Positions 3,660 to 32,831 of a DNA stretch of 64,000 nt are shown here, piece by piece (position 1 is the first letter of the stretch; every line of letters starts with the position of its first letter). The translations under genes and the position numbers were made by a program. The stretch is from Desulfoscipio sp. XC116 (GTDB lineage: Bacteria > Bacillota > Desulfotomaculia > Desulfotomaculales > Desulfallaceae): contig NZ_CP156660.1 in NCBI RefSeq assembly GCF_039851975.1, forward strand, positions 3,911,035 through 3,975,034, given 5' to 3'. The notes beneath the pieces are model-generated. The model saw only the letters and a list, made by a program, of their open reading frames with translations, made no database searches and was not told the DNA's origin.

Positions 3660-4325
3660 TCAATTCGCGGGGTCTAAACCCATTGCCTTTAGGCGGTATA
3701 CGCTTTAAGCCTTAAAAAGCAGGGCATGCAGGGCATACTAAACTCAAAAAGGAGAAGAAATATGCCGGCAGAATATAATAAATCCAGCCATGCTGTTTAT
3801 GACATCAAATATCACATCATATGGGTAACAAAGTATCTATATAAATTATTGGGTGAAGAAATAGCAAAACGGCTAAGGGAGTTGATTCGTCAGGGCTGTG
3901 AAGCAAGAAACATGACGATAGTCCAAGGAAGTATAGGGAAAGATCATGTGCATATGCTGTTATCCTGTCCGCCAAGTCTGTCACCGAGTAAAATCGTCCA
4001 ATATTTAAAAGGAAGGTCATCAAGGTTATTGCAGGATGAGTATCCGGAACTCAAGAAAAAGTACTGGGGACAACATTTATGGGGTAGAGGATATTTCTGT
4101 GCAACAGTAGGAAGTGTGACGGAGGAAACAATCAGACGCTATATAGAGAATCAAGAAATATCCGGCAATAACGAGATATTTAAGATAAGAGAATGAGTTT
4201 CAGTCATGATTTAGGTTGCTTTCAGCGACAGAGCTTTAAGAAGGATTAATCCTTAGGTGGTCGACTTTCAGTCGAAAAGCATTTATGCTTTAACCTGCCT
4301 ACTTTTAGTAGGCGGTAGTTTAGAT
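3660..4325 (+). mobile_element. IS200/IS605-type insertion sequence (approximate limits)
   Basis: A single Y1 transposase gene (3762-4196) is flanked by short imperfect hairpins, as in IS200-type elements. Upstream at ~3668-3725 there are folded sequences around GCCTTTAGGC. Downstream are CGACTTTCAGTCG at ~4262 and CCTACTTTTAGTAGG at ~4299. IS200 elements have no terminal inverted repeats, so the exact ends cannot be read from sequence alone. The element sits between two decayed transposase genes. No tnpB is present. Confidence 0.7.
3762..4196 (+). CDS. tnpA: IS200/IS605 family transposase TnpA
   Basis: This is a single-strand Y1 transposase that cuts and rejoins single-stranded DNA at the hairpin ends of IS200-type elements. 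The 144-residue protein has the usual length. It shows the HUH motif (DHVHML, ~residue 64) and the catalytic tyrosine region ETIRRYIENQ near residue 125. The ATG at 3762 is chosen because AGGAG lies just before it and the protein then begins MPAEYNKSSHAVYDIKYHI, the normal family start; the upstream ATG at 3726 has no ribosome site. It is the only apparently intact transposase in the window, and could act on related ends elsewhere. Confidence 0.92.
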   Translation: MPAEYNKSSHAVYDIKYHIIWVTKYLYKLLGEEIAKRLRELIRQGCEARNMTIVQGSIGKDHVHMLLSCPPSLSPSKIVQYLKGRSSRLLQDEYPELKKKYWGQHLWGRGYFCATVGSVTEETIRRYIENQEISGNNEIFKIRE

Positions 4326-5723: not shown

Positions 5724-8700
5724 ATGGATGATACAAAAATTGCCGTCATTGGTTTGGCAGGACGTTACAGTAATGCTGAAGATATCGGGATAATGTGGCA
5801 AAAGCTACTAGATGGAACAGATTTTCATGTTTGGGGAGAATATAGGAGAGACAATCTAGCAGCACTATATATAAACCGGTATGCAAAAATAGATTATTTG
5901 GAATACTTCGATAACGAGTTTTTTCATTTTACACCATACGAAGCACAGATTACAGACCCGCAACAAAGAATACTGTTGGAGTGTTGTTTTGAAACATTGG
6001 AAAATGCCGGCTATGCCGATATAAGCAAAAAACAATGTATCGGTGTCTTCGCCTCTGCCAGCTTGAGCACATATTTATTGCACAATATTCTTTCTCAAAA
6101 AAAGTACAATAGTAACGAGATCAATTATAATGTTTTGATTAGCAATGATAAAGATTTTACAGCAACCAGGATTGCTTATAAGTTAAACTTGTGTGGACCA
6201 GCATACACTGTACAATCTGCTTGCTCAAGCTCACTCGTTGCACTACACTGTGCATACCAAAGTATTCTTAATTATGAATGCGATGCGGCGCTTGTAGGTG
6301 CTGTCTCTATATTAATTCCCCAAGAGCAAGGGTATTATTATAAAGAAGGCGGTATTCTTTCAAAAGACGGCATATGTAGGCCCTTTGATGATGAAGCAAA
6401 CGGTACGATCAAGGGGAATGGATGTTCAGTAGTAATGCTTAAAAGATTGGCGGAAGCCGAAAAAGATCAGGATCGTATTTATGCAGTTATCAGTAGCACG
6501 GCCGTTAATAATGATGGTTCTGCTAAAATCGGTTTTACAGCCCCGAGTGTTGAAGGACAAGCAGCCGTGATCGATGAATGCATTGCCTATAGCAAAATCG
6601 ATAAAAGCAAAATCGATTATATCGAAGCGCACGGTACCGGTACAAAATTGGGAGATCCGATCGAAATCAAAGCCTTATACAAAGTATATAGCAATGTCGA
6701 TAAGAAGATACCTATAGGCAGTATTAAAGCAAACATTGGTCATTTAGATGTCGCTTCAGGATTGACTTCCACCATTAAAGCAATATGTATGTTGCAGGCT
6801 GGTATCATTCCTGCAAACATTAACTTTAAAAGTTTGAACAAAGAAATCACATCAAAAGTCCCTTTTTATTTTCCCGTAACAAATAAAAAAAAATTACTTA
6901 CCCATATCGGCGTCAGTTCCTTTGGGTTGGGTGGTACCAATGCACATGTAATCGTATCTAAATATGAAAAAAAACAACGCCCCAAAAGCCAGCATGACAT
7001 GTATATGATCCCGATCTCTTATTTCAGAGAAAGTGACTTAGAACCCATCACCAAACAACTTATTGCTAATCTTAATCATCACTTAGGAGATATTGTTTAT
7101 TCTATGTCGATTGGTAAAAGAAAGTTTAAAAATAATGTTTACCTATTGTTCAGAAATAAAGAAGAATTGAGCGCCAAATTGATGGGCAAAGATTATATTC
7201 GGTCAAGCAGATACCGTCCCAGTCTTCCTGTTTTTGGTTTAGAAGATTACCGGTCGTTTCAGTATTTGTTTCCTAAATATGAAGAGCTTTGCAAAACTGC
7301 TGGAATTGACAATGTGTCTATCGATAAACAACAGGAGTATTTTAGTAGGCACTTGGCGTGGATCCGTTTTTTAAAATCAATTTGTATGCTTGATGCAGAG
7401 GATTTAACTTTTGTCAAAAGACTTGATCAGCAACTATGGGATTTAGCTGACAATGATGAATCTTTTCTAGCAATGAGTTGTTATGATGAATTTTTTTCCT
7501 CTATACCAGTAGGTATAGAAACGGCTTTGACCGAATTTCTAAATTTTATAGGACAAGTTCAATGTATAAGCCAAATTGATTTTAAGGTGCTTTATAAAGA
7601 TCTAGGTTGGGAACACCTTGCTATTACAAAATACCCATATAAGAAAAAAAGGTTTTGGATTGATGTTTATGAGAAAGCAAAGAATGTTGCTCAGATAGAG
7701 CATTTAACCAGTCGCGATGAAGACGCTTATGTGGAAATGATTTTAGAAATCTGGAAAGGTGTTATTGGGCTTGAGGAAGTTGAAGTCGATGATGATTTTT
7801 ACGAGTTAGGCGGAGATTCCCTCTTATTAATTGCTGTTTTAGATAAGATAAATAACAGAATTTCGACAAAGTTAAGTATTGAAAATGTTATCAATTTCAA
7901 TACTCCTAGAAAATTGGCCGGCTATTTATCTAATAGAATTGCTATTTCTAATAATTACACGTTTATCTCTAAAATCAGAGATAATGGTCCTTCAGCCCAA
8001 AATATTTTTTTGATCCATCCTGCTGGTGGCACAACGCATTGTTACAAACTTTTGCATAAATATCTTGATACACAGGTGGAATTTAATTTATATTGTATTG
8101 ACTTGCCGCAAAATCATAGCAATTATCCAACGATGGAATCGTTAGCAAAGCTTTATGCAGCTGGTATTTTAAATATCCAAAGTGTAGGACGCGTAATTAT
8201 CGGTGGTTATTCTTTCGGTGGAAATATGGCTTGTGAAGTAGCATTACAAATCCAAAACCAAAATAAAGGAATCGTTATTGATCATGTCCTGCTTTTTGAT
8301 TCTCATCCTCCGATTGCTTACAACTCCTATCAAAATCAAATAATCAATTATAATAAAGTTTTTTTTGTTATGCTGGCAAACTATCTTCAACTTGATGCTA
8401 ATTATATTGCAGAAGGATACCAAAAAGGAACGTTACAGGATGAATTAATGCTTAGTTTAAAAAACAATAAAAAGTTGGGTTTATCCTTAAGTGATGAAGA
8501 AATGATAGGTTTTTTTGATCGCTGGGTTTATAGTCATAAATTATTAAAACAGCATCAATTTAATGTAAAACTTCCTATGGATTGTGTCATTTTTCGTAGC
8601 ATCGAAAATGAAGATGAGTTTATTCTCAATACTTTACAGATTAAATTATACCAAAAGCAGGAGTGGGAAAAATATTTTGACGGTAACGTAAAAATTTTTG

Positions 8701-8795
8701 ATACACCAGGCAATCATTATACAATGTTTAGCGATAGCGAAAATGTTAAAGAATTAGCAAACGTAGTAAAAGAATGTTATATGCAATTGTTTTAA
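5724..8795 (+). CDS. Ketosynthase - (no active AT) - carrier - thioesterase megasynthase
   Basis: This 1023-residue polyketide synthase-type protein would extend an acyl chain and release it. A ketosynthase fills residues ~4-415, with active Cys167 (SACSSS), His303 (EAHGTGT) and His340 (NIGH). A KS-AT linker (~435-490) leads into a region of ~150 residues in which no acyltransferase GHSxG motif can be found. The post-AT linker remains (YPYKKKRFW, ~637). A carrier domain follows with Ser699 (ELGGDSLLL). A type I thioesterase occupies ~755-1023, with Ser830 in GGYSFGG and a late GNHYT histidine. Extender units must therefore come from a separate acyltransferase, or the module is inactive or non-elongating. 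The start has an AGGAG site at ~5710. It reads in the same direction as the NRPS at 1-2748 and shares its AT-rich composition, so the two probably belonged to one pathway before insertion elements separated them. Confidence 0.9.
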   Translation: MDDTKIAVIGLAGRYSNAEDIGIMWQKLLDGTDFHVWGEYRRDNLAALYINRYAKIDYLEYFDNEFFHFTPYEAQITDPQQRILLECCFETLENAGYADISKKQCIGVFASASLSTYLLHNILSQKKYNSNEINYNVLISNDKDFTATRIAYKLNLCGPAYTVQSACSSSLVALHCAYQSILNYECDAALVGAVSILIPQEQGYYYKEGGILSKDGICRPFDDEANGTIKGNGCSVVMLKRLAEAEKDQDRIYAVISSTAVNNDGSAKIGFTAPSVEGQAAVIDECIAYSKIDKSKIDYIEAHGTGTKLGDPIEIKALYKVYSNVDKKIPIGSIKANIGHLDVASGLTSTIKAICMLQAGIIPANINFKSLNKEITSKVPFYFPVTNKKKLLTHIGVSSFGLGGTNAHVIVSKYEKKQRPKSQHDMYMIPISYFRESDLEPITKQLIANLNHHLGDIVYSMSIGKRKFKNNVYLLFRNKEELSAKLMGKDYIRSSRYRPSLPVFGLEDYRSFQYLFPKYEELCKTAGIDNVSIDKQQEYFSRHLAWIRFLKSICMLDAEDLTFVKRLDQQLWDLADNDESFLAMSCYDEFFSSIPVGIETALTEFLNFIGQVQCISQIDFKVLYKDLGWEHLAITKYPYKKKRFWIDVYEKAKNVAQIEHLTSRDEDAYVEMILEIWKGVIGLEEVEVDDDFYELGGDSLLLIAVLDKINNRISTKLSIENVINFNTPRKLAGYLSNRIAISNNYTFISKIRDNGPSAQNIFLIHPAGGTTHCYKLLHKYLDTQVEFNLYCIDLPQNHSNYPTMESLAKLYAAGILNIQSVGRVIIGGYSFGGNMACEVALQIQNQNKGIVIDHVLLFDSHPPIAYNSYQNQIINYNKVFFVMLANYLQLDANYIAEGYQKGTLQDELMLSLKNNKKLGLSLSDEEMIGFFDRWVYSHKLLKQHQFNVKLPMDCVIFRSIENEDEFILNTLQIKLYQKQEWEKYFDGNVKIFDTPGNHYTMFSDSENVKELANVVKECYMQLF

Positions 8796-8925: not shown

Positions 8926-9578
8926 CTACACCATGCTCAACCTGGCTAATTTGGTCAGGTTATATGCAAATATTGAGTTCCCAACCCAGCATTTTGTGCC
9001 AGACGTACCCCTAAACAGACTTCGGCCTAGTCCGTACTTGCGTTTAAGGACACTTATAGTAGTCTCACCGCCCGCACGCCAGCGCTGAAGTCGTTTAAAC
9101 CAAGGTTGCTTTTCGTGAGCTTTTCTGACAGCACTTTTCTTGCTCTTGTAAGGTAAGCTAATTCTTTTAACGCCTTTATCCTTTAGCATCTGTTCATTGG
9201 CTTTGCTACCGAAGCCACGGTCTGTAGCCACTTCTTTGGGTGTTTGCCCCAAAGTCTGCTCGTGTTTGTCAACATCATCTTCAAGGAGTGTATCGTCGCT
9301 GGGATTGCCTTGGTATACAGCATAATTACTGATAATTTTGTTTTCTACTTCTTGAATTAGAACTTTGTGGCCAAACTCTGTGGTTACCTTAGCCTTGCCC
9401 CGACGAATCGGGCGAGCATCTGTATCGAAAACACCCACACAATGCGGTCCTTGATTTTTTCTTTAGCAGTTGCCTTTCTGCTTTGGTCTATAATTGTTTG
9501 GGTCACGTGTAGCTGATCCGTAAGTTTTTCTATTATATTACCGCAAATCATAGCCGGCGCTTGTCTTTTACCCGCCAT
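8926..9578 (-). pseudogene. Frameshifted, 5'-truncated DDE transposase
   Basis: Two overlapping frames encode one protein. The upstream frame (9384-9578) ends IKDRIVWVFSIQMLARF and the downstream frame resumes VGVFDTDARPIRRGKAK, so a frameshift lies near 9440. The downstream part has the conserved EVATDRGFGSKANE and the final AGGETTISVLKRKYGL region of an IS5/IS4-like DDE transposase. About 215 residues are left, roughly half of a normal protein, with the N-terminus missing. It lies directly after the thioesterase gene. Confidence 0.8.
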
Positions 9579-11314: not shown

Positions 11315-13294
11315 TTAATTGTGAGCCAGAAATGTTTTTATGGCCGACTGTACTTGTTCATTGGAGAAACCTTTTAAATCAATTGCTCCCGAGCGGCATG
11401 AAGCGGTGCAGCTGCCGCAGCCCTGGCATAAACCGCTGTTTACCCGGGCGACTTGTTTTGTCCGACCGCCGGCTCTATCAGTAACTTCCTTTATCTCAAT
11501 GGCGTTAAACGGACAAACATCCCGGCACAAAAGGCAGCCCTGGCATAAGGATTCATTTACCTGCGCAATCATGGGATTGGTGGCAATTTGCTGTTTATTA
11601 AGCAAAGTGCAGACCTTCATCGCGGCCGCGCCGGCCTGGGATACGGTGTCGGGAATATCTTTGGGTCCCTGGCAGACTCCGGCTAAAAAGATCCCCCCCG
11701 TGTTGGTCTCCACCGGGCGAAGTTTGGGGTGTGCTTCCTGGTAAAACCCGTCCTGGTCCGTGGTAAAACCGACAGTTCTGGCAAGCTCCCGGGAATACCG
11801 GGACGGCACCATCGCCGTGGCTAAAACAACCAGGTCCGCCTCAATCTCCACCTGGGCGCCCAACAAAGTATCCGCACCCTTGACCAGCAGCTTGTCGCCC
11901 TTCCGGGATATCTTGGATACCCGCCCCCGGATATAGCGGGCCCCTTCATTAACAGTACGCTGGTAAAATTCCTCGTAAGCCTTGCCCGGCGCCCGCACAT
12001 CCATATAAAAAACAAACACCCGGGACCCCGGTATTTTCTCCATCACTTGATGAGCATGCTTGGCGGTATACATGCAGCAGGCCCTGGAACAATAAGCCTT
12101 GCCCTTGGCCTCATCCCGGGAACCCACACATTTGATAAACACTACGTTTTGGGGCTCTTTACCGTCGGAAGGCCGCACTATTTTACCGTCGGTCGGCCCG
12201 GAAGCGTTGACCAGGCGTTCGAACTGCAGGCTGGTAATTACATTGTCTAATTTTCCGTAACCGTATTCACCGTACGCTTTGGCCCAGTCAAAGAGGTCAT
12301 AGCCGGTAGCCATGACAATGGCGCCTACTTCCACCTGCCGGTACTCATCCCGGTCCTCGTAATTAATTGCCTGGGCCGCGCATACCTTGGCGCAAACACC
12401 ACATTTTTGTCCGTTTAAGAGACGACAGTTATCGGCGTCTATGCAGGGCTTATTGGGAACAGCCTGGGGAAACGGAATATATATGGCTTTGCGCTCGCTC
12501 ATATATTGGTTGAATTCGCTGGGCACTTTTTTAGGGCATTTTTCCCAGCAAGTGCCGCAGCCGGTACACTTGGTATGATCAACATAGCGGGCCTTTTGTT
12601 TCACAGTCACGGTGAAGTTGCCGATATAACCACTCACTTCAGTAACTTCGGAATAAGTTAAAAGTTCGATATTGGGATGCTGCGCCACCGCCACCATCTT
12701 GGGCGTGCTAATACATGCCGAGCAGTCTAAAGTGGGAAAAGTTTTGTCCAACATGACCATTTTACCGCCTATAGTCGGCTCCCTTTCTACAAGCACAACT
12801 TTATGCCCGGCATCCGCTATGTCCAGGGCCGCCTGAATGCCGGCAATACCACCGCCTATCACCAACGCTTTTTTGGTTACAGGAATAGCGTCCTCAAAAA
12901 GCGGCTCCAGGCGGGCCGCTTTGGCAACGGCCATTCTGACCAGGTCAATGGCCTTGGCGGTAGCCTTCTCAGGCTCCTTGGCATGTACCCAGGAGCACTG
13001 CTCGCGAATATTGACCATCTCAAGCAAATAGGGGTTTAACCCCGCCCGAGCGATGGTATTGCGGAAAGTAAGCTCATGCAAGCGAGGTGAGCAAGATGCC
13101 ACTACCACCCGGTCCAAATTATGTTCTTTAATAGCATTTACAATCATATTCTGTCCCGGTTCGGAACAGGTATATTTATAATCCACACTGTGCGCAACAT
13201 AGGGAAAATGGGCGGCCTGGGCAGCCACCCGAGGCACATCCACAACTCCGCCTATGTTTGAACCGCACCAGCAAATAAATACTCCAATCCGCAT
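11315..13294 (-). CDS. hdrA: Heterodisulfide reductase-like subunit A (HdrA)
   Basis: HdrA is the FAD-containing iron-sulfur subunit of soluble Hdr complexes that split electrons between a disulfide and ferredoxin. Numbered from the chosen start, it shows a Rossmann FAD motif (VIGGGIAGIQAALD, ~146-159), the conserved DCSACIS (~191), a 4Fe-4S motif CTGCGTCWEKC (~243-253), CGVCAKVC, and a C-terminal double ferredoxin (CQGCLLCRDVC and CQGCGSCTASC). The ATG at 13294 is preferred over a TTG at 13327 because GGAG sits eight bases before it and the protein then begins MRIGVFICWCG, as in relatives. It is the last gene of hdrC-hdrB-hdrA. No mvhD, qmo or flox gene is adjacent, so the electron donor is not visible here. 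Confidence 0.93.
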   Translation of the reverse strand: MRIGVFICWCGSNIGGVVDVPRVAAQAAHFPYVAHSVDYKYTCSEPGQNMIVNAIKEHNLDRVVVASCSPRLHELTFRNTIARAGLNPYLLEMVNIREQCSWVHAKEPEKATAKAIDLVRMAVAKAARLEPLFEDAIPVTKKALVIGGGIAGIQAALDIADAGHKVVLVEREPTIGGKMVMLDKTFPTLDCSACISTPKMVAVAQHPNIELLTYSEVTEVSGYIGNFTVTVKQKARYVDHTKCTGCGTCWEKCPKKVPSEFNQYMSERKAIYIPFPQAVPNKPCIDADNCRLLNGQKCGVCAKVCAAQAINYEDRDEYRQVEVGAIVMATGYDLFDWAKAYGEYGYGKLDNVITSLQFERLVNASGPTDGKIVRPSDGKEPQNVVFIKCVGSRDEAKGKAYCSRACCMYTAKHAHQVMEKIPGSRVFVFYMDVRAPGKAYEEFYQRTVNEGARYIRGRVSKISRKGDKLLVKGADTLLGAQVEIEADLVVLATAMVPSRYSRELARTVGFTTDQDGFYQEAHPKLRPVETNTGGIFLAGVCQGPKDIPDTVSQAGAAAMKVCTLLNKQQIATNPMIAQVNESLCQGCLLCRDVCPFNAIEIKEVTDRAGGRTKQVARVNSGLCQGCGSCTASCRSGAIDLKGFSNEQVQSAIKTFLAHN

Positions 13295-13343
13295 ATGCAT
13301 CGCTCCAATATGAAAATATTTACGCAAGTTATTTAAAAATCAA

Positions 13344-14201
13344 CTATCCAACCAGTTTTAACACCTGTTTAGTATCCACAAAATGAGTATTAAAGCCTAA
13401 AGCAGAAGGTTTAAGCCCCACGGCCAATCCGACTAGCTGGGTAAAATAAAGTACCGGCAGCCGGTAATCGGTACCGAAAACCTGGTTGACTTTTTTCTGG
13501 CGCATATCCAAATTAAAATGGCAAAGGGGGCAGGCTGCGGCAATACAATCAGCCCCGGCCTGGGCGGCATCGGCAAATATTTTTTGAGTTAGTTTTAGAA
13601 CTACGTCCTCATTGGATATAGCCAGGGAGGCCCCGCAACATTCGGTTTTACTGTTCCAATTCACAGTCCGGGCGCCAACGACCTGCAGCAGGTCGTCCAT
13701 AAGCATGGGGTTTTCGGGGTCATCGACTTGTATTTCTTTGGGTCTAACCATCAAGCAGCCATAGTAGACGGCTACTTTTAAATTCCGCAGCGACCTGACC
13801 GTCTTGGCAGCGATCAGCGCCGGGTCCAATTCGCAAATAACTTCCAGCATCGACTTGACCCGAATACCGCCGTGGTAGGGTTTGCCCGTGGCCCAGTTAA
13901 CCTTTTCACAAAGTTCCGGATTAGTTTGCATTTCCACGTTGGCCATAGCCAGCCGCTGATAGCAGGCTGCGCAGGGAGTGGTGCAATCCAGCCCCATTCC
14001 CTCGATGATGGCTAAATTGCGGGCCGCCAGGGCCACCCCCAACAAATGGCTGGTACTGTGTCCGGGTGTTGAGCCGCAACAGCTCCAGTCGGGTATTTCC
14101 ACCAATTCCACGTCCAGCGCACGGCAAAGCGCCCTGCTTGATAGGTCGTATTCTTTACCGCTGGAATGTTCGCTGCACCCCGGGAAATAAGCGTATTTCA
14201 T
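13344..14201 (-). CDS. hdrB: Heterodisulfide reductase-like subunit B (HdrB)
   Basis: HdrB carries the catalytic non-cubane 4Fe-4S clusters bound by two CCG domains. Both are visible: CCGSTPGHS with CAACYQRL in the first half, and ECCGASLAIS with CPLCHFNLD in the second. At 285 residues the length is normal. It starts MKYAYFPGCSEH, typical of the family, with GGAGGAG just upstream. It overlaps the end of hdrC by four bases, so translation is coupled. In non-methanogens the disulfide substrate is not CoM-S-S-CoB and remains undefined. Confidence 0.93.
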   Translation of the reverse strand: MKYAYFPGCSEHSSGKEYDLSSRALCRALDVELVEIPDWSCCGSTPGHSTSHLLGVALAARNLAIIEGMGLDCTTPCAACYQRLAMANVEMQTNPELCEKVNWATGKPYHGGIRVKSMLEVICELDPALIAAKTVRSLRNLKVAVYYGCLMVRPKEIQVDDPENPMLMDDLLQVVGARTVNWNSKTECCGASLAISNEDVVLKLTQKIFADAAQAGADCIAAACPLCHFNLDMRQKKVNQVFGTDYRLPVLYFTQLVGLAVGLKPSALGFNTHFVDTKQVLKLVG

Positions 14202-14782
14202 TTGTCATTCTCCTCCAATTCCCGTACCCGCCGGAAAATCAATTCTATATCGCGGTGACTCTTATTTCTAGCCGGTAATAACTTGATTTTATTGCGGCTG
14301 AACATAGCCAAACCGGTAGAAGAATTCTGAAAAATATGTCGGGTTTTTAAATTATATTTAAGCATCATGCCCAGCTCATAAAGTTTACCGTTACCCTTAA
14401 CAGTATTTAAAAAACAATCGTAAAATGTGGACACATCCTTTGCCCGTCCCTGTGTTTTGACACCATTGCGCTTGGCCAAGCCGCGCAGGCAATCCATAAC
14501 CCGGGCCAGGTCAACATTGCGGGGACACCTTGAGGTGCAGGTGGAGCAACCGGCACAAATCCAGATAGCCTGGCTGCTTAGCACCTGCTCCTGCAGCCCT
14601 AATTGAACCAAACGAATCACGCGGTGGGGCGGAAAATCCATAGCAAAAGCAACCGGGCACCCGGCTGTGCATTTGCCGCATTGGTAGCATTGTTCGACCG
14701 GCTGTCCGCTTTCTTTACTTACATAATCAATAAAACCGGAGTTGTCGTGTAGGCTGGCCGATAAATCAATTGCTAAACTCAT
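14198..14782 (-). CDS. hdrC: Heterodisulfide reductase-like subunit C (HdrC)
   Basis: HdrC is the small ferredoxin-type subunit passing electrons from HdrA to HdrB. Two 4Fe-4S motifs are clear: CYQCGKCTAGC (~32-42) and CAGCSTCTSRC (~76-86). The 194-residue length fits. AAGGAG precedes the ATG at 14782. It is the first gene of the hdrCBA operon; the promoter should lie in the AT-rich 14783-14950 stretch. Confidence 0.92.
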   Translation of the reverse strand: MSLAIDLSASLHDNSGFIDYVSKESGQPVEQCYQCGKCTAGCPVAFAMDFPPHRVIRLVQLGLQEQVLSSQAIWICAGCSTCTSRCPRNVDLARVMDCLRGLAKRNGVKTQGRAKDVSTFYDCFLNTVKGNGKLYELGMMLKYNLKTRHIFQNSSTGLAMFSRNKIKLLPARNKSHRDIELIFRRVRELEENDK

Positions 14783-30787: not shown

Positions 30788-32653
30788 TCAATCCACCAAT
30801 GACCTGGCCAACCCGACAATCTCCTGCTCCCGTTCCGCCAGCTTTTCCGTATTCTGTACCATATTAATCATTTCTCCGTTAACCAAACGGATTTTTGAAT
30901 CTAAATCATCGGCCAAGCCGAGGATTTTTTCGACATTTAAAATAGCCTCTTTTTCGTTAAAACGCACTGAATCCACAGTTTGTTTAGTGCCATTGGACAA
31001 CTTGCGCACTTCCTCGGCTACCACGGCAAACCCGCGTCCATGTTCACCGGCCCGGGCCGCTTCAATAGAGGCATTTAAGGCAAGCAGATTAGTTTGATCA
31101 GCTATACCGACTATTTCCCGAGAAACGTTAGCAATCCCCATTAGCTTGTCCTTCACTTCATGAATTGTTTCTTTCAACATGTCAGCCATTTGCAAAACCG
31201 AATCATTTTGCCGCTCCACATTATTAGCACTGCGAACGTTGTCCTGATTGGCAGCCGCCAGCTGGCTCATAGAGCTTATGATCTCCGCGACCTTCTCTTT
31301 CAGACTTTCCCTCAGCGACTTTTCATTAGTCATTATTTCCAGGCCCGTCCTGTTGTAATGAATGCAATTATTGAGATGATTTACACCGTTATATATGGCC
31401 TTGGCAAATTCTTTACAGCTCCCATAACCACAGGCAAAACAGTTTATATTCTGAGATTTCTCAGTAGCCTTATATAATTTAATAAATATTTGCTCAAGCT
31501 CGGAACGGATGGGTTCTTTCTTTATAATCCCGCCGGATTTGTTCTCGTATTGACGGATAAAATCATCCAGGCTCAATTCTTTAGCAAACTTTTCAAATAA
31601 AACGTAAGCGTTACCGCCCAATAGTTTCTTTTTGGACTTTTCCTTTATTTTTTGCTGTTTAAGAACATTAGTTAACTTATCAATATCATCAACCTCAATA
31701 TTTTTCATTGTCCCGGTGCCCAGGTTACAGCCATTAATACAATTCAGCACGTCAACGATTAAAGGGAGGCTTTTATTCTCCTTTAACCTTTCAGCATACC
31801 GGTTCAAATAATGATAGGCATGATTAACACCCTCCACTTGTTTTATCCATGCCGCACCGCCCGTATGAAATTCAACGTTCTCCCGCAAACCTCCCGGTCT
31901 GCTGTAAGTTAGACCGAGACCGCACCCTATGTCATCAAAATCCGCTTCATCATGCACATCCAGGTTAACATTATTTTTTCCCAGGTACTCCGATAACTTT
32001 TTATAAGTAACATTAAATTCAATCAGCTTGCCCGTATGCTTATCGTTGATTTCATTAATTTTAGCTATGCAGGGCGATAAAAAAGCCAGCTTATCTCTTA
32101 CTTGCATGTATTTATTCAGGTAAACGGCCGTACACATCATGGGACTATGTACAGGAGCCAGTTTAGCCAACAAATCAGCATTGTATTTCTGTGCATAATT
32201 TACAATTGGCGGGCAGGGCTGCGCCACAACGGAATCCAGGCCCAGCTTTTGGATAGCCTTTAAATAAGCCCAGGTGGTAATATCAGCGCCCAGAGATACA
32301 TCGTAAATTATATTGACGCCTTTCTTTTTTAAGTAACTAAATAGTTTTTTATAATTAGTAAAATTATACCTTATAGCCGGGGCAGCCAACACGGAAATCC
32401 TTTCACCCCGCTGCAGGGCATTAAAAAATTCTTCCGTATCATCATAATATGCACGGGCATCGTGATCACACACCTCAATGCAATGACCACAATTGATGCA
32501 CCTTTCCGGGTCCACTTTGATCTTATTTACCCCATCCGCCAGATAAGCGACATTGGCATATTCCACAGGACATTCCAAAATACACTTATTACAGCCGACA
32601 CAGTTATCTTCCAGGGTAAAGATTACGCCCTTTGTTTTATCTATACTTTCCAC
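30788..32653 (-). CDS. [FeFe]-hydrogenase-like domain fused to a chemoreceptor signalling domain
   Basis: A soluble protein of 621 residues joining three parts. (1) An N-terminal double ferredoxin ([22 protein letters not shown]; ~18-62). (2) A hydrogenase large-subunit-like domain (~80-340): the H-cluster ligands are kept, Cys147 in AQPCPP, Cys195 in SPCIAK, and Cys305/Cys309 in NCINGC, but the TSCCP proton-transfer Cys is Pro. It is followed by an extra Fe-S motif (CFACGYGSC). (3) A methyl-accepting chemotaxis signalling domain (~460-621; [20 protein letters not shown]). No membrane helix is present. The likely role is a cytoplasmic redox or H2 sensor feeding a chemotaxis-like pathway. GTG at 32653 is chosen because GGGGGA lies six bases before it; the ATG at 32704 has no site. 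Confidence 0.88.
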
Positions 32654-32831
32654 AATATTCCCCCATCTTAAAACTATATACATTATCGAATTTATTATCG
32701 ACATTTATTAAATTTTTTTTATTGAAAAATACAAAAAATAATAAAATTTTTTTATGAAATTGAAACCACCATCCGTAAAGTTAACTATTTTACCGATGTA
32801 TTGCAATTGCCAAATTAATTATTTATTGGTA

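Follow-up and report, generated by a model that had tools for sequence, protein, structure and literature searches.

Does the gene at positions 30788..32653 encode a working hydrogenase, or a sensor in which a hydrogenase-derived module drives a chemotaxis receptor? The question is raised by its product, a 621-aa protein that carries an [FeFe]-hydrogenase H-domain and a chemoreceptor in a single chain, and it is answered below from the protein's anatomy, active-site residues, relatives and candidate partners.

Gene and domain organization

The minus strand of the window (the whole 64-kb stretch of DNA analysed) carries the gene, whose frame is uninterrupted. The GTG start at 32653 is backed by a GGGGG ribosome-binding site located 6 bases upstream (32660..32664, minus). 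The preliminary description gave the same coordinates, which are correct; the strand is added here. The G+C content of the gene (41.7%) is slightly lower than that of the window (45.8%). Downstream lies a TauE-type permease gene on the opposite strand, while a GntR-type regulator and an ABC unit are found upstream, also in opposite orientation. Inspection of the window by eye revealed no hydrogenase or maturase gene adjoining the receptor gene, and conserved neighbourhood was set aside as a guide to function, no gene neighbours common to the window, genome G017 and Desulfocucumis palustris being seen by eye. A sigma-28-like promoter was also considered. The match TAAA-N15-GTCGATA at 32696..32721 (minus) is weak, with one departure from the consensus GCCGATA, and it is the sole such match in the 64-kb window. 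Among 8 other chemoreceptor frames of the genome, inspected over limited upstream DNA, the match was missing in 7 and looser in 1, and the promoter reading was not retained. Elsewhere in the window, frames identified by eye resemble a peptide/polyketide synthase pair (28-2748 and 5724-8795), with transposase-like frames between and behind the pair (3726-4196 and 8926-9438), and HdrABC heterodisulfide-reductase parts (11315-14782).

Pfam matches of the Fer4 type and to Fe_hyd_lg_C, PF04060 and MCPsignal are all above cut-off and far beyond chance. The N-terminal two-cluster ferredoxin domain comprises residues 15-66 (32456..32611, minus) and is followed by the hydrogenase H-domain at residues 86-312 (31718..32398, minus), defined by an Fe_hyd_lg_C match of 86 bits and by structure comparison. 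A third Fe-S element, the C-terminal motif Cx2Cx4Cx16C, occupies residues 405-430 (31364..31441, minus) within a PF04060 match of 31.7 bits (residues 402-431). The remaining chain forms the chemoreceptor helical hairpin (30794..31363, minus), assigned by model and structure match to helices 431-534 and 536-620. The MCPsignal match spans residues 488-564 (87.5 bits), and the conserved CheA/CheW-binding tip residues 513-552 (30998..31117, minus), in agreement with the chemotaxis signalling tip first claimed for the protein. The preliminary description lacked the C-terminal cluster domain; it was right that the H-domain and the chemoreceptor are found in one polypeptide, but the two are not fused directly. 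Its statement that a membrane helix is missing holds, the top mean hydropathy of any 19-residue window being 1.17. The anatomy seen in sequence and models runs from an F-domain with two [4Fe-4S] sites through the H-domain and a C-terminal [4Fe-4S]-type site to a hairpin with its tip.

A PAS domain is not detected by Pfam, even at E values as high as 1. No NCBIfam hydrogenase model reached its cut-off, the best being TIGR04105 (125 bits vs 450 needed), and the group A model TIGR02512 scored 81.9 bits vs 405.95 needed. The tail displays no match to two methylation-site patterns, both written from recall. An anti-phage role was rejected, its sole support being a 17-bit BrxP match in the ferredoxin stretch.

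The AlphaFold2 model of the whole protein (42 rows) displays a mean pLDDT of 88.3 and a pTM of 0.72. Row set A3 held 42 of the 47 tip-bearing rows (L051, L118, L120, L124 and L126 were excluded for their longer tails), and A4 held 24 rows. The modelled H-domain fold superposes on CbA5H (8zqd_A) with Z 34.8 over 350 residues at 2.7 A, and on CpI with Z about 31. In the AlphaFold model the last Fe-S ligand, C430, is positioned at the foot of the single 104-residue helix 431-534, which reaches the CheA/CheW-binding tip. Since the tail was barely tested in the whole-model comparison, residues 385-621 were modelled separately (pLDDT 91.0, pTM 0.54). This second model fits YfmS of B. subtilis (9a72_A, an integrative model) with Z 15.8 and 168 residues superposed at 1.1 A, and 3g67, a soluble receptor of T. 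maritima, with Z 14.3. In the E. coli core signalling unit (6s1k_E), the receptor tip also superposes on the tail, at 0.9 A over 102 residues. Because Z is as high as 14.0 for 5xg2, an unrelated coiled coil, against the same model, the case for a receptor tail rests on the closeness of the fit together with the tip sequence and not on Z alone. Over 36 tip residues (IADQ...VRKL) a single position differs from L022, a receptor of the same genome.

Active-site loops, proton paths and maturases

The three H-cluster loops were read from an alignment that included relatives and the other hydrogenases of the genome, using CpI as the numbering reference. Loop 1 (AQPCP; 32210..32224, minus) provides the cubane ligand C147 and places Pro146 at the proton-relay position, C299. 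Loop 2 (SPCIAK within LSPCIAK; 32060..32077, minus) provides C195, with Ser193 replacing M353 and Lys198 in the place of K358. Loop 3 (31724..31753, minus) contributes C305 and C309 and carries Leu303 for M497. Thus, the four cubane cysteines are kept, the proton-transfer cysteine is replaced by Pro and the TSCCP and MPC loops are altered, as initially described. These features are largely invariant among 79 aligned relatives, taken from the best 80 of at least 459 found in a contig scan of genomes (L113, a short frame, was left out): the four cysteines are found in 79/79, Leu303 in 78/79, Lys198 in 76/79, Pro146 in 75/79 and Ser193 in 73/79. Pro also stands at the C299 position in all seven members of a side family (L039-L045) of H-domain receptors. 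The loop 3 of this side family is shorter by one residue and reads CxxC instead of CxxxC. Pro at this position is uncommon rather than new, because it is carried by about 10% of HydDB sensory sequences, according to the available passages of PMC10055695.

Placed by eye, the residues of the group A proton path (CpI C299, E279, S319, E282 and R286) correspond to P146, Y130, A166, A133 and L137, so none is left. The path of group D is likewise altered: the passages at hand of PMC10407848 describe E252 and E289 as the proton-path glutamates of TamHydS, and the 621-aa protein displays Leu256 and Asp301 in their stead. Among the host's own hydrogenases, HydA (L001; L186:13356-14948) displays a twin-arginine-like leader, seen by eye, and its loop 1 reads TSCSP, with Ser at the aligned cubane-ligand position; TSCSP or SSCSP is also found in HydA of several relatives.

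Of the maturase genes HydEFG, proposed earlier as something to look for, HydG is present in the host genome, with a HydE-like gene, named by eye, adjoining it. The host's HydG (L010:1489-3021) contains a low-complexity insert rich in Ser, Gly, Asp and Asn, which divides the family match into two parts. Within the class, HydG is found in 12 of the 13 genomes that host a relative and in 10/10 of the good ones, including the present host. The co-occurrence was rejected as proof of an H-cluster and says little, because the background is also high (68/80 good class genomes; 10/10 hosts vs 58/70 others, p 0.34), HydG being not clearly commoner in hosts. For the wider relatives with a receptor tail, tested on 46 of the best-80 scan genomes, HydG is present in 29/46 and none was found at E 1e-60 in 17/46. 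HydF is also missing over cut-off from 15 of these 17 genomes, and in 15 a hydrogenase is still matched at more than 290 bits, 13 of these matches having all three loops near-canonical by a motif script; no weight is placed on this pattern. Because such hydrogenases are kept in 15/17, the lack of HydG may reflect a data gap or another maturation, and it was not accepted as proof that the H-cluster is absent. Fourteen genomes combine a hydrogenase above 290 bits with no HydG (E 1e-60) and no HydF (cut-off), perhaps through missing contigs or another maturation route: G113, G122, G124, G130, G133, G134, G137-G139, G142-G144, G146 and G149 (hosts of L047, L059, L061, L070 and others). A published survey located hydG by motif in only 3/8 acetogens, according to the passages at hand of PMC9431212.

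Relatives, tree placement and chemotaxis partners

At E <= 1e-60, a threshold that leaves weaker relatives uncounted, a class-wide search of 113 genomes located relatives in 13, the host included, and none in six congeners. Two homologues, in G017 and G028, are about 70% identical and have the same short tail; in the tree, no difference separates the G028 protein from D. palustris L047. The best-80 relatives, mostly from MAGs, belong to Bacillota, Spirochaetota, Fibrobacterota, Planctomycetota, Calditrichota, Ignavibacteriota, Thermodesulfobacteriota, Pseudomonadota, Bacteroidota and Melainabacteria. A receptor profile built here, seeded with 8/17 loci, detects the chemoreceptor tail in 46/80 of them and in 59/98 over every protein examined, D. 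palustris L047 and L034 being one protein counted twice in both the 98 and the 59. Pfam MCPsignal is found in 59 of the 91 tails scanned (of 98 proteins), and other outputs include histidine kinase, PAS and GGDEF domains.

A tree of 109 rows, built by a quick method, with the short frame L113 excluded and no true TmHydS or TamHydS rows, places the 621-aa protein in an 86-row sensor clade of several phyla (SH-aLRT 100). Fourteen HydA/HydB rows and the host's own paralogue L004 are positioned across a branch from this clade (SH-aLRT 95). The preliminary description had named a position inside catalytic group A as evidence against a sensory role; the H-domain is found outside the HydA/HydB rows tested. 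Its call for placement in the hydrogenase phylogeny is answered for these rows, while the position relative to groups C and D is provisional: group D is represented by L004 alone, which falls apart from the 621-aa protein but on a very long branch. A 17-row Ruminococcus-type subclade contains no row that matches the receptor profile. The tails of its members L079, L086, L090 and L081 read as coiled coil with no receptor tip, and CheW domains are absent from 11/17 of the subclade's genomes.

The CheA and CheW partners that were to be looked for are present in the host genome, which displays four CheW-domain matches, one of them in a 744-aa CheA-like frame. This frame adjoins CheB-like and flagellar genes (names mostly by eye), and MotA/B-like genes were also seen by eye. 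Eighteen receptors are found above cut-off, including the 621-aa protein. Across genomes, CheW domains accompany 44/46 tailed relatives vs 19/31 tail-less ones (Fisher p 1.9e-4; 31 of 34 tail-less cases used, L048, L096 and L113 being excluded as truncated or short). Pairing by tree position reduced the comparison to 6 independent pairs, with a median p of 1 and no significance. The link between tail and CheW is suggestive only, because its significance is gone once relatedness is allowed for, and despite strong raw counts it was rejected as proof of CheA output.

Proposed signalling model, alternatives and known systems

The tree position, the partner genes and the wholly replaced group A proton path favour a sensor over an enzyme, as first suggested. 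On the evidence of sequence, it is fairly probable that the 621-aa protein is a cytoplasmic H2/redox chemoreceptor that signals through CheA and with a ligand-binding half made of a sensory [FeFe]-hydrogenase module, and the host probably steers by H2 or by the redox state of the cell. H2, or electrons from ferredoxin, would reduce the H-cluster and the chain of clusters, and this reduction would alter the state or packing at the C-terminal cluster capping the receptor helix. The shift would then run along the helix pair to the tip and alter CheA activity, so that swimming would follow the H2 or redox level. Two points of analogy may weigh against this reading. According to the passages at hand of PMC13104023, H2 reduces an N-terminal cluster of TamHydS but leaves its C-terminal cluster unreduced within the physiological range of pH; the Leu at the M497 position is the other. 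Also counted against it are the unreached NCBIfam cut-offs, the unmatched methylation patterns, the lack of a hydrogenase or maturase neighbour, the ordinary frequency of HydG in hosts, its absence from 17/46 relatives' genomes and the tail/CheW link that is null after relatedness.

A real if doubtful possibility is a redox receptor that keeps the [4Fe-4S] cubane of the H-domain, lacks [2Fe] and reads ferredoxin or redox state. It would also signal through CheA, so it shares the output half of the favoured reading and its probability overlaps with it. This alternative accommodates the conserved Pro at the amine-facing position (75/79 relatives and 7/7 side-family rows), the lack of both the group A and the group D proton path, the 17/46 relatives' genomes with no HydG, 15 of them also with no HydF over cut-off, alongside cubane cysteines that are invariant among the aligned relatives, and the poor integration of [2Fe] by CpI M497L described in the available passages of PMC10055695. 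In contrast, the loop-2 Lys198 (K358) is kept in 76/79, the host genome encodes HydG and a HydE-like protein, and the 15/17 HydG-less genomes with a hydrogenase above 290 bits suggest that a data gap may explain the lack of HydG. TamHydS, which displays the same Ser for M353 and Leu for M497 as the 621-aa protein, does take [2Fe], as described in the passages at hand of PMC8163306. Extended to the whole clade, the idea seems rather unlikely: these hydrogenase-shaped chemoreceptors may act with no [2Fe], the cubane and three accessory clusters serving as a redox-reading electron wire that bends the helix via the cluster ligand at its foot. Such a clade would represent redox taxis by a retired hydrogenase.

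That the receptor-like tail serves a process other than swimming, with c-di-GMP or two-component partners for instance, is distinctly unlikely. The D. palustris gene, 70% identical, does follow genes for a response regulator, a hybrid histidine kinase with an H-domain and a GAF/HD-GYP protein (8-base overlap with the last), but these neighbours are absent from the host locus and from G017, and the sole long CheW-domain frame of the host genome adjoins flagellar genes. In D. palustris the four genes follow in this order at L191:6122-12687, the receptor homologue being last. Very unlikely is an oxidant or O2 alarm in which O2 damage to the clusters would switch the receptor and send the cell away from oxidised zones. 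Such an alarm would suit the four Fe-S sites of this cytoplasmic receptor and the fast reaction of TamHydS with O2 (in the passages at hand of PMC8163306), but an H-domain with a conserved loop-2 Lys and loop geometry would then presumably be needless. A working H2 enzyme whose tail serves solely for polar placement is barely credible: every cubane ligand is kept, but no residue of the group A proton path is left and the protein falls outside the HydA/B rows of the tree.

The architecture has a counterpart in HydDB, where Table 1 names [FeFe]-hydrogenase group C2 'Chemotactic (putative)', a proposed H2 sensor (passages at hand of PMC5037454). As in the 621-aa protein, the H-domain of group C2 is tied to methyl-accepting chemotaxis signalling, and the group's traits are found here as four cubane cysteines and a chemotaxis link within the same polypeptide; those passages describe no residue-level mechanism for group C2. 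According to the available passages of PMC9431212, matches to group C2 were discarded at the validation step of a survey. Among the literature matches listed, no test of a chemoreceptor-fused hydrogenase was found in titles, the first parts of abstracts or passages; the kind is known in print, apparently with no published test. The passages at hand of PMC4704652 (citing Warnecke 2007) suggest that putative sensory hydrogenases orient termite-gut bacteria in steep H2 gradients.

TamHydS, of group D from Thermoanaerobacter mathranii, shares with the 621-aa protein two N-terminal clusters and a C-terminal Cx2Cx4Cx16C (PMC8163306, passages at hand). In contrast, it displays Ala where Pro is found at the C299 position, the E252/E289 proton path in place of Leu/Asp and, in the passages at hand, no PAS or other output domain, whereas the 621-aa protein has the receptor hairpin. 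TmHydS, of group C from Thermotoga maritima, is similarly built of an F-domain, an H-domain, a C-terminal cluster and an output domain, this being PAS instead of a chemoreceptor hairpin, and has Ala at the C299 position, Gly at M353 and Ser at M497. Both proteins take up the H-cluster and turn over H2 slowly (available passages of PMC10055695 and PMC8163306), and H2 is reported to alter the secondary structure of TamHydS (passages at hand of PMC13104023). The soluble receptors YfmS and 3g67 display a similar hairpin length and the same tip fold; unlike these, the sensor half of the 621-aa protein is hydrogenase-derived.

H2 is a main currency between anaerobes. Because the protein is compact and soluble and its genome has one CheA-like frame, H2 taxis and a route from metal cluster to helix are testable with purified parts, and the 621-aa protein offers a native test of how far a hydrogenase pocket can vary before its cofactor is lost. 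Since HydDB already lists a putative 'chemotactic' group C2, the protein adds to a known kind. What is added here is the residue-level anatomy, its invariance across several phyla, the helix-foot geometry and the observation that one genome encodes three H-domain sensors with different wiring: the 621-aa receptor, L003 and L004. L003 (L188:2780-4978, near 3107 kb) joins its H-domain to a sigma-54 activator that ends in a DNA-binding region of the Fis type. L004 (L186:4143-5952, near 3494 kb) is of the TamHydS type, with the group D proton-path residues E252/E289 in register, and lies directly behind a small kinase-like ATPase gene.
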